From contig NZ_JANIBO010000001.1 in the NCBI RefSeq assembly GCF_024506395.1, positions 1,240,001 to 1,304,000 on the forward strand: a stretch of 64,000 nt of DNA. Reading direction: 5' to 3'. Within the stretch, counting starts at the first letter, position 1. Each line of letters begins with the position of its first letter. The stretch is from Cetobacterium sp. NK01. Lineage in GTDB: Bacteria; Fusobacteriota; Fusobacteriia; Fusobacteriales; Fusobacteriaceae. Made by a program: the position numbers and the translations under genes. Under the pieces are notes generated by a model. The model was given only the letters and a program-made list of their open reading frames with translations. It ran no database searches and was not told the origin of the DNA. Of the stretch, positions 28,589 to 31,680 are shown piece after piece.

Positions 28589-28617
28589 TTGACAAAAGAG
28601 TTTTAATATAGTAATAT
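28589..28617 (+). promoter_or_regulatory. Promoter of the mgtA leader
   Basis: TTGACA (28589-28594), 17-bp spacer, TAATAT (28612-28617). The transcript would begin just before the M-box. Confidence 0.7.
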
Positions 28618-28627
28618 CAAGTCAGAT

Positions 28628-28785
28628 AAAGAAATCGGTAGGTGAGGCTACCATAGGGATAAGGGTTACTGCCGCGAAATAGTGGAGACACTATGAGTTG
28701 GTTAACAGTCTATGTCGAAAAACAAGGCATAGAATAATGTAATTTCATCGCCCTATGAAGCTAAAGCTCAAACGGTGACTAATGT
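28628..28785 (+). ncRNA. M-box (ykoK-type) magnesium riboswitch
   Basis: The conserved M-box elements occur in order: TAGGTGAGGCTACC, then GGTTACTGCCGCGAAA, GAGTTGGTTAACAG, a variable hairpin near 28712-28733, then CATCGCCCTATGAAGCTAA and AGCTC. Their order and spacing match the Bacillus mgtE-type leader. In the family, Mg2+ compacts the RNA and favours a downstream terminator. Here a terminator at 28806-28838 precedes a magnesium-type P-type ATPase, so low Mg2+ should allow read-through. Confidence 0.88.
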
Positions 28786-28805
28786 AAAAGACTATTTTGT
28801 TATTT

Positions 28806-28838
28806 ACCTTATTACTGTTTGAGTAATAAGGTTTTTTT
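28806..28838 (+). terminator. Riboswitch-controlled terminator
   Basis: 11-bp perfect stem ACCTTATTACT with loop GTTTG, followed by seven Ts. It lies directly after the M-box, as an expression platform. Confidence 0.88.
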
Positions 28839-28869
28839 ATTTTAAATTTTAAAATTTGGAGGTGTAAAA

Positions 28870-28974
28870 ATGGAAGGCGAGGTCCAGAGTAGTAAGAGAA
28901 GTACCCATTATTTAAAATATTATTCCAGAATAGATTTAAACTCTCTTATGAAAAAAGATCTATTCTATTTTTAG
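28870..28974 (+). CDS. 34-residue leader peptide candidate before mgtA
   Basis: ATG with an excellent ribosome site (GGAGG, seven bases upstream), 34 codons beginning MEGEVQSSKRS and ending LMKKDLFYF, stop TAG. No proline cluster as in enterobacterial MgtL. It is basic and Tyr/Ser-rich. The ORF overlaps two nested inverted repeats (28896-28905 with 28990-28999, and 28927-28935 with 28958-28966). The inner one is followed by ATTTTTA, so ribosome movement could decide whether a second terminator-like hairpin forms. Whether it is translated is unknown. Confidence 0.45.
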   Translation: MEGEVQSSKRSTHYLKYYSRIDLNSLMKKDLFYF

Positions 28975-28999
28975 CATTGAAAAATTTAGGTACTTCTCA
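28896..28999 (+). promoter_or_regulatory. Nested inverted repeats in the mgtA leader
   Basis: Outer arms GAGAAGTACC (28896-28905) and GGTACTTCTC (28990-28999), perfect. Inner arms AGAATAGAT (28927-28935) and ATCTATTCT (28958-28966), perfect and followed by a T-rich tract. The outer stem ends about 20 bases before the mgtA ribosome site. Candidate secondary attenuator below the riboswitch. Confidence 0.45.
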
Positions 29000-29034
29000 T
29001 TTGAAAAAAATCAAATTATGAGGAGGAATTTAAA

Positions 29035-31680
29035 ATGAAAACACTAAAAACACTAAATGCTCAAAATATGTTGAGCTGGGCTATGAAGGAAAATATTGAA
29101 GATATTTTTAAGAAATTAAAAACAGGTATATCAGGTTTAAATGAGGAATCGGTTATACCTATGAGAGAGATTTTTGGTAAAAATAAATTGTCAGAACAAA
29201 AGAAAGAGTCACTGATAAAAAAATTTATTTTGTCATTTATCAACCCATTTACAGTTATACTTTTTGTTTTAGCTGGAGTTTCATTTTTTACTGAAGTTGT
29301 TTTAGCTAATCCAGGAGAACAGGATTTTACAGGAGTTATAATAATCTCAACTATGGTTATAACAAGTGGTCTTTTAAGATTTATTCAAGAATCTCGTTCA
29401 GATAGTGCTGTTGAAAAATTAAATGAACTAATTGAAACAACAGCACTTATAACAAGAGGAGATATATCAAAAGAGATACCTGTGGATGAGATAGTAGTGG
29501 GAGATCTAATAACTTTAAAAGCAGGAGATATCATTCCAGCAGATATAAGACTGTTTCAAGCAAAGGATCTATTTATAAGTCAATCCTCTTTAACTGGAGA
29601 GAGTGAACCAGTGGAAAAATTTATATTTGATTCTAGTGAGAGTCAATCTCCCTTGGAATCAAAAAACCTAATTTTTATGGGAAGCAATGTAGTTAGTGGA
29701 TCTGCTAAAGGGATAGTTGTAACTGTTGGAGATGGAACAATATTAGGAAATTTAGCAAAAGATTTAAACCATAAAAAAGGAGTGACAAGTTTTGAAAAAG
29801 GAGTGAATTCTGTTTCTAAACTACTTGTGACTTTCATGCTTTTTATGGTACCTTTTATCTTTTTAATAAATGGAGTTGTAAAAGGGGATTGGTTTGAAGC
29901 ATTTTTATTTGCTTTATCCATAGCAGTTGGGTTGACGCCTGAGATGCTACCTATGATTGTTTCTGCAAACTTGGCTAAAGGTGCTAGAAAAATGGCTAAG
30001 CAAAAAGTTATTGTAAAAAATCTAAATGCTATCCAAGATCTAGGTGCAATGGATATCTTATGTACAGATAAAACAGGAACTTTAACTCAAGATGAGATTG
30101 TTCTTGAAAGATATTTAAATACTTTTGGAAAAGAGGATAAAAATGTTTTAAAATATGCATTTTTAAATAGTTTCTATCAAACAGGATTAAAAAATCTTAT
30201 AGATGTTGCCATAATAAATCATGCCAACGAAAAAGATATAAAAGTGTTGATAGAAAATTGTAAAAAAATAGATGAGATACCTTTTGATTTCAATCGTAGA
30301 AAAATGAGTGTTCTAATTGAAAATGAAAAAGAGATTGAATTGGTGACAAAAGGCGCTGTTGAAGAGATGATAAACATTTCAAGCTTTATTCAACAAGGCA
30401 ATGATATAGTTCCTTTAACTGAGGATATAGAGAGTGAAATAATAGAGGAAGTTAAAAAATTTAATAACCAAGGGCTAAGAATTATAGGTGTTTCTAAAAA
30501 GATGATGAATAAAAAAGAATGCTCGCTAAGTGATGAAAACGACATGATTTTCATAGGATATTTAGCATTTTTAGATCCTCCTAAACCTAGTACAAAAGAG
30601 GCTATTAAATCACTTCTTAATCACAATGTCAATGTTAAAATTTTAACTGGTGACAATGATGCAGTGACATCATATATCTGCTCTAAAGTTGGTTTAGAGA
30701 ATAATGGAATACTTTTAGGCTCTCAGCTAGTGGGGTTATCTACAACTGAGCTAAAAAAAGCTGTAGAAAATAATAGCATCTTTGCAAAGTTGTCTCCAAG
30801 TCAAAAGACATTGATAGTAAAGACACTTAAAGAGAATGGTCATACAGTTGGATTTATGGGAGATGGAATTAATGATGCCTCAGCAATGAAAGAAGCTGAC
30901 GTTGGAATATCAGTGGATACTGCTGTGGATATTGCAAAAGAGTCGGCTGATATAATACTTTTGGAAAAAAGTTTAATGGTATTAGAAGATGGAATAATTG
31001 AGGGAAGAAAGATATATGGAAATATAATTAAATATATAAAAATGACAGCAAGTTCAAACTTTGGAAATATGTTTTCAATGTTAGTTGCAAGTGCTTTTTT
31101 ACCATTTTTACCAATGTTTCCAATTCAGATTTTAATGCTAAATTTAATATATGATATCTCTTGTGTTGCTATCCCTTGGGATAATGTAGATGAAGAGTTT
31201 ATAAAGAGTCCTAAGAAATGGGATGCATCATCTATTAAGAACTTTATGCTTTGGATAGGTCCTAGTAGCTCGATCTTTGATATAACAACATATGCAATTA
31301 TGTATTTTATAATAGGGCCATATATTTTAAAAGGAAATTTCCATGCTTTAGATGCTTTAGGACAAGAGAGATTTATCTCTATTTTCAATACAGCTTGGTT
31401 TATTGAATCTCTGTGGTCTCAAACTCTTGTTATATATTTAATAAGAACATCTAAAGTATCATTTTTAAAGCATAGACCATCTTGGCAAGTTATGCTTTTG
31501 ACTACTTTAGGAATTGGGATAGGAACAGTTATTCCATTTACATTTTTAGGAGATAAGTTAGGAATGACAACTTTACCTTACTACTATTTTATATTTTTAT
31601 TTATTACGATAGTTTCATATATATCTCTAGTTTCAGTGTTAAAAATAAAGTTTATAAAGAGATATAAAGAGTTATTATAA
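29035..31680 (+). CDS. mgtA: Magnesium-translocating P-type ATPase
   Basis: 881 residues, near family length. Cytoplasmic N-terminus with LSEQKKESLIKKFILSFINPF. Actuator motif LTGES; phosphorylated Asp345 in CTDKTGTLTQD; KGA in the nucleotide domain; TGDN and MGDGINDASAMKEADVGIS hinge. Ten helices, with the P3B-specific ends (PWDNVDEEFIKSPKKW). It imports Mg2+ at the expense of ATP. The M-box upstream independently supports magnesium as substrate. AGGAGGAATTTAAA before the ATG. A P-type Ca2+/Ni2+ role is unlikely given the riboswitch. Confidence 0.93.
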   Translation: MKTLKTLNAQNMLSWAMKENIEDIFKKLKTGISGLNEESVIPMREIFGKNKLSEQKKESLIKKFILSFINPFTVILFVLAGVSFFTEVVLANPGEQDFTGVIIISTMVITSGLLRFIQESRSDSAVEKLNELIETTALITRGDISKEIPVDEIVVGDLITLKAGDIIPADIRLFQAKDLFISQSSLTGESEPVEKFIFDSSESQSPLESKNLIFMGSNVVSGSAKGIVVTVGDGTILGNLAKDLNHKKGVTSFEKGVNSVSKLLVTFMLFMVPFIFLINGVVKGDWFEAFLFALSIAVGLTPEMLPMIVSANLAKGARKMAKQKVIVKNLNAIQDLGAMDILCTDKTGTLTQDEIVLERYLNTFGKEDKNVLKYAFLNSFYQTGLKNLIDVAIINHANEKDIKVLIENCKKIDEIPFDFNRRKMSVLIENEKEIELVTKGAVEEMINISSFIQQGNDIVPLTEDIESEIIEEVKKFNNQGLRIIGVSKKMMNKKECSLSDENDMIFIGYLAFLDPPKPSTKEAIKSLLNHNVNVKILTGDNDAVTSYICSKVGLENNGILLGSQLVGLSTTELKKAVENNSIFAKLSPSQKTLIVKTLKENGHTVGFMGDGINDASAMKEADVGISVDTAVDIAKESADIILLEKSLMVLEDGIIEGRKIYGNIIKYIKMTASSNFGNMFSMLVASAFLPFLPMFPIQILMLNLIYDISCVAIPWDNVDEEFIKSPKKWDASSIKNFMLWIGPSSSIFDITTYAIMYFIIGPYILKGNFHALDALGQERFISIFNTAWFIESLWSQTLVIYLIRTSKVSFLKHRPSWQVMLLTTLGIGIGTVIPFTFLGDKLGMTTLPYYYFIFLFITIVSYISLVSVLKIKFIKRYKELL

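Follow-up and report, generated by a model that had tools for sequence, protein, structure and literature searches.

The leader of mgtA in Cetobacterium sp. NK01 probably places two Mg2+ controls in series (a probability of about 0.68): transcriptional control by an M-box riboswitch and, below it, an attenuator that would act through aborted translation of a leader ORF. Both lie within the window, the whole 64,000-nucleotide stretch of DNA that was analysed. Sequence comparison and RNA folding identify a conserved leader ORF with an acidic start, located between the M-box with its terminator (T1) and mgtA, together with three mutually exclusive RNA arms that run from inside this ORF to the mgtA Shine-Dalgarno (SD) sequence. 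The elements of the locus are as follows.

28589..28617, + strand: candidate promoter, TTGACA-17 nt-TAATAT, directly 5' of the aptamer (consensus scan, 10/12 positions).
28627..28786, + strand: M-box (ykoK-type) Mg2+ riboswitch aptamer (Rfam RF00380, 107 bits against a gathering score of 44).
28806..28838, + strand: riboswitch terminator T1, a predicted intrinsic terminator with an 11-bp stem (28806-28832) and a T run.
28858..28864, + strand: SD of the leader ORF, GGAGGTG, identified in the sequence.
28870..28974, + strand: leader ORF of 34 codons (ATG, 28870; TAG, 28972-28974), MEGEVQSSKRSTHYLKYYSRIDLNSLMKKDLFYF, with acidic codons 2 and 4.
28895..28916, + strand: arm 1, inside the leader ORF (nt 26-47); 1:2 duplex of -17.8 kcal/mol, P of 0.013 against codon shuffles.
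28927..28966, + strand: inner hairpin at the end of the ORF (28927-28937/28956-28966), 11 pairs, one of them G-U, -10.2 kcal/mol.
28976..28999, + strand: arm 2, 3' of the ORF stop, predicted partner of arm 1 or arm 3, with the shared core CUUCUC (28993-28998).
29018..29026, + strand: arm 3, the mgtA SD region, AUGAGGAGG, within which AUGAGGAG (29018-29025) is predicted to pair with CUUCUCAU (28993-29000) in the OFF form.
29035..31680, + strand: mgtA, magnesium-translocating P-type ATPase of 881 aa (NCBIfam TIGR01524, 1100 bits against a cut-off of 611).

The aptamer scores above the gathering cut-off of RF00380 and is located upstream of a Mg2+ transport gene, mgtA. Its 3' strand contains CTCAAAC (28767-28773), complementary to GTTTGAG (28817-28823) in the loop and 3' arm of T1; judged by complementarity, this pairing is a candidate antiterminator, the normal arrangement for such a riboswitch. 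The TTGACA/TAATAT site is likely the promoter of the leader, a call that rests on position because the scan yields no more sites than chance expects. A second MgtA-like ATPase is encoded elsewhere in the same genome (G000:C1:93092-93646, L054), with neither an M-box nor a leader ORF, and may be under different control.

A first-pass annotation of this DNA had described, after the M-box and its terminator, an ORF of 34 codons behind a strong ribosome site, and had proposed that the ORF forms a second control layer, to be checked by the conservation of ORF and stems in relatives. The arrangement was confirmed, both ORF and stems are conserved, and the proposed second layer is supported. An M-box was present in 14/61 genomes of the family to which the window belongs, and behind each of the 14 came an ORF with a strong SD (24-40 codons), itself followed by mgtA. 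Elsewhere in the phylum, M-boxes were found in only one further genus, in which the four that precede mgtA all carry the ORF (32-41 codons). Each of the 18 M-box-mgtA leaders that the search recovered from Fusobacteriota, in three genera, thus has the leader ORF in the same place, which argues strongly against chance; these 18 leaders represent only about five independent lineages, such that the counts overstate independence. The ORF lists were mechanical and the SD patterns permissive, and controls were scored under the same rules. No leader ORF was found before mgtA paralogues that lack an M-box. In the same phylum, tandem M-box aptamers (L058/L061, G090:C1:2726594-2726983), each with a terminator-like stem, precede an mgtC-like gene, and no leader ORF was found before that gene.

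Folding of the region 3' of the ORF stop revealed that the mgtA SD pairs with a sequence inside the 3' arm of an outer inverted repeat overlapping the ORF. Since the 1:2 and 2:3 pairings both use CUUCUC at 28993-28998, they are mutually exclusive. In the window, codon-shuffled versions of the ORF rarely matched the pairing of the real ORF with the post-stop region (P = 0.013), and across the set the 1:2 duplex outperformed codon-shuffled ORFs with P of at most 0.06 in 17/18 leaders, the exception being L057 (P = 0.31). The mgtA SD had three to five of its five bases paired across the 18 leaders, and in 16 of them the partner positions of the SD region fell entirely or for the most part within arm 2 (only 6/13 in L014 and L015). 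The sequences of the arms vary by lineage (GAGAAGUACC, AGUAGUAUAUAUUUAAA, ACAGACCUGAAAGGGCAGAG and GGAGAAUUACAUAUAAUAU) while the same pairings recur, showing that the architecture is conserved and not the sequence. Within lineages, pairing is kept by some one-sided and few two-sided compensatory changes. In erm leaders, arms 1:2 compete with arms 2:3, the downstream ribosome site is the last arm, and induction is brought about by drug-stalled ribosomes. The fusobacterial leader shares with such attenuators the leader ORF and the three-arm layout, with a predicted choice between arm 1:2 and arm 2:SD; it differs in that early ribosome drop-off is the proposed inducer. The output of this switch, as modelled, is likely the translation of mgtA.

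The informative folding comparison was between a ribosome held at the start of the ORF and an ORF masked in its entirety as translated. With the whole ORF masked, the mgtA SD was mostly paired, according to equilibrium estimates. A start-held ribosome freed the SD to a greater extent in 16/18 leaders and to a lesser extent in none, with two leaders showing no difference; this release was lost with codon-shuffled tails (P of at most 0.06 in 16/18). The effect in the window was small under equilibrium folding, from 0.01 to 0.15, and it was large in three leaders of the genus whose peptides begin with MPEEP, from 0.01 to 0.8. Arm 1 begins at nt 16-30 of the ORF in leaders outside the MPEEP genus, just beyond a ribosome sitting on the first codons. 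Equilibrium folding of whole leaders without a ribosome was rejected as a readout; it gave no clean ON state because of competition from the leader SD region.

From this arrangement, we infer the following sequence of events. At low Mg2+, the M-box would admit RNA polymerase past T1 into the leader. When Mg2+ is sufficient, ribosomes would translate past the start of the ORF and keep arm 1 open, leaving arm 2 to mask the mgtA ribosome site, and mgtA would be off. When Mg2+ is low, the acidic nascent start would destabilize the ribosome, as in MgtL and MgtQ, and cause it to drop off before arm 1; arm 1 would then capture arm 2, the mgtA SD would be freed, and mgtA would be translated. Arm 2 is transcribed before arm 3, an order that would favour the 1:2 pairing whenever arm 1 is free. 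Both layers would point the same way, OFF at high and ON at low Mg2+. A point against the proposed direction comes from MgtQ, in which a ribosome occupying stem region 1 raises expression (PMC8092293); identical parts can thus be connected in different ways.

The inverted repeats that overlap the ORF are largely as first described, that is, two nested repeats with a T-tract after the inner one. The outer repeat is perfect (GAGAAGTACC, 28896-28905; GGTACTTCTC, 28989-28998), and the inner repeat is perfect over 9 nt (AGAATAGAT, 28927-28935; ATCTATTCT, 28958-28966). The nested element has a folding energy of -27.0 kcal/mol, with a z score of -3.7 against dinucleotide shuffles, 1/200 of which were as good. 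A short, weak match to 28907-28940 (36 nt, L007) occurs on contig 4 of the same genome. The inner hairpin is followed by A-TTTTT, the TTTTT (28968-28972) entering the stop codon of the leader ORF, and the first-pass annotation had implied a second terminator here. On that reading, mgtA would be controlled by transcription attenuation, with the inner hairpin and its T-tract terminating transcription under the control of leader-ORF translation. The stability of the hairpin and the five T residues overlapping the stop codon are consistent with this, as is the recurrence of such a hairpin, with a T-run at the stop, in the remaining M-box leaders of the window's genus and in roughly half of those from the second genus. 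The T-tract is absent, however, from four leaders of the second genus (CTGTAAAAATA) and from the third genus, and with two lineages lacking it the hairpin was rejected as a general, conserved second terminator; from this distribution, the T-tract appears to be lineage-specific. Furthermore, ribosomes dropping off early at low Mg2+ would allow the terminator to form and so turn mgtA off, which is the wrong direction, and the conserved pairing between arm 2 and the SD would be left unexplained. By the same token, a real terminator at this position would oppose the proposed mechanism once ribosomes drop off. We therefore consider transcription attenuation unlikely. The structure that matters is instead the 3' arm of the outer repeat, which is predicted to switch between the ORF and the mgtA SD, and the inner hairpin with its T-tract may be a pause site or a weak terminator.

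The signal that the three-arm attenuator reads is suggested by the start of the leader peptide. The ORF is short, is preceded by an SD, lies in the leader of a gene for a Mg2+ P-type ATPase and has acidic residues within its first five codons, as expected of an MgtL/MgtQ-like leader ORF. The N-terminus was acidic in all 18 fusobacterial M-box-mgtA leader peptides (MEGEV, MDVEN, MDTEN and MPEEP among them), and the 16 distinct peptides start with MEGEV, MEGDV, MDAGV, MDVGV, MDTGN, MDTEN, MDVEN or MPEEP. Aspartate or glutamate occurred at codon 2 or 3 in 16/16 distinct peptides versus 7/46 SD-preceded genes of the window (P = 9e-10). The acidic positions move, from codons 2 and 4 to codons 3 and 4 in MPEEP, which argues for the residues themselves and not for a nucleotide motif.

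Acidic starts were also frequent before mgtA outside the phylum, in a sample of 80 MgtA loci of other bacteria, one of which was a Cetobacterium relative. In the 300 nt upstream of mgtA, these loci contained 43 strong-SD ORFs with lengths of 15-50 codons, of which 81% had an acidic codon 2 (25/32 after removal of near-copies); the corresponding figures were 6% for 160 short SD-preceded ORFs from other parts of these loci and 11% for 445 genes. Codons 2 and 4 were both acidic in 46% of the ORFs before mgtA, versus 0-0.7% in controls. Examples include MDSDGSPRR in Lachnospiraceae and Oscillospiraceae, MDDSSQ in Enterococcus, MDPDGSS in a Syntrophorhabdaceae genome and MDAGPAK in a coriobacterium. 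Leaders with an acidic start are found among loci L063-L142, for instance L095, L085, L117, L064 and L103 (Bacillota, Coriobacteriia and Syntrophorhabdaceae). At a frequency far above that in controls, acid-start ORFs before mgtA probably constitute a widespread class of leader peptides. The combination of M-box, acid-start ORF and mgtA also occurs in L105 and L138. In the Erysipelothrix order, an M-box comes directly before mgtA in 11 cases; an acidic residue falls within ORF codons 2-6 in about nine of these leaders (an uncontrolled count), L152 and L161 being less clear. Three leaders of this order (L149, L151 and L155) have an acid-start ORF soon after the aptamer (MDEYRRYKNW, MDDYLSMNFKRW and MDGYQWCKW), and in L151 and L155 it precedes a second acid-start ORF closer to mgtA. 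The three-arm pattern was also seen in leaders of Enterococcus and Terrisporobacter (P of 0.005-0.055). Lachnospiraceae leaders have a different layout, in which the ORF ends at the mgtA SD.

These observations bear on whether the same three-arm attenuator might instead respond to another signal, such as amino-acid supply, general ribosome stress or antibiotics. Leader ORFs are able to sense many ribosome stresses, and the Salmonella mgtA and mgtCBR leaders respond to proline supply as well (PMC3641672). Against this, no run of a single amino acid was found in the leader ORF, and what is kept is mainly the acidic N-terminus, which recurs upstream of mgtA in several phyla. A signal other than Mg2+ is accordingly a doubtful alternative, and we rate it slightly below transcription attenuation.

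Beyond its start, the peptide is poorly conserved. Within lineages, the first nine residues are alike at six to eight positions, while identity in the tails ranges from 24/31 down to 0/15, and in one species the frame of the leader ORF shifts after about codon 18; between lineages, the tails have almost nothing in common. Values of pN/pS were about 0.3-1.7 in pairs, indicating that the peptide overall is weakly constrained, although by itself this ratio is uninformative because RNA pairing constrains the codons too. With an N-terminus that is kept and tails that drift or change frame, the start appears to matter as peptide and the rest mainly as an RNA track. For this reason, and with the arms inside the ORF being kept, it is highly improbable that the ORF encodes a functional small protein with MgtA or the membrane as its target, the RNA structure being incidental, even though the frame is kept in most genomes at similar lengths (24-41 codons).

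The M-box leader with its proposed translation-abort attenuator was compared with known Mg2+-responsive leaders. In MgtL, low Mg2+ leads to ribosome drop-off at an EPDP motif (PMC11282234; PMC11552253). Like the fusobacterial ORF, MgtL is encoded upstream of mgtA (in E. coli and Salmonella) by a short ORF with acidic residues in the first codons (EPDP, beside MPEEP in one fusobacterial genus), and poor translation is expected to switch mgtA on. MgtL differs in its reported Rho-dependent transcription termination, an unrelated RNA and a proline-rich start; in the fusobacterial leader, a genuine M-box is followed by a predicted three-arm switch that involves the mgtA ribosome site. MgtQ, of Salmonella mgtCBR, carries Asp2 and Glu5 and has alternative stems over the mgtB ribosome-binding site (PMC8092293). 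Its acidic codons (2 and 5), its translational output and its ORF-overlapping alternative stems, which hide or expose the ribosome site of a gene for a Mg2+ P-type ATPase, are points of likeness; in contrast to the fusobacterial ORF it has 8 codons and is intergenic, with four stem regions, no riboswitch and an unrelated sequence (PMC8092293). The initial view that this leader is unlike that of enterobacterial mgtA therefore holds for the RNA but not for the peptide, given that the acidic N-terminus (MPEEPS in one genus) resembles EPDP and Asp2/Glu5. By analogy, the sensing principle is probably shared with MgtL and MgtQ even if the RNA itself is an independent design. The tails look unrelated to MgtL and MgtQ, so we propose an analogue that works alike and not an orthologue. 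By covariance model, layer 1 belongs to RF00380, like the M-box of B. subtilis mgtE, and it has a terminator; what sets it apart is the proposed leader-ORF attenuator that comes after this terminator. The M-box of M. tuberculosis pe20 is likewise followed by a conserved small ORF (uORF2/rv1805A), but in that case it is the small ORF whose translation the M-box controls, pe20 lies downstream, and there is no mgtA SD switch (PMC12810186). On these comparisons, the fusobacterial leader would be MgtL-like in its sensing principle and MgtQ-like in its output, with a layout closer to that of erm-type attenuators. A search of openly accessible literature returned no fusobacterial or Gram-positive MgtL-like leader and no report of this design.

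That bacteria in general sense Mg2+ for mgtA by translation-aborting leaders with an acidic start, present in at least four phyla and recurrently in series with an M-box, is a proposition to which we give about even odds. Sensing of Mg2+ through destabilization of the ribosome by the nascent chain has been described only for enterobacteria in the literature surveyed, and if the leaders of Fusobacteriota and Bacillota work in this way the principle would be far more widespread. Some 60 natural leader variants are available for testing what makes nascent peptides destabilize ribosomes. If the general reading is true, a single transcript would read both free Mg2+, through RNA folding, and the integrity of the ribosome, through translation, and the M-box, the textbook single riboswitch, would often be just the first of two Mg2+ checks.
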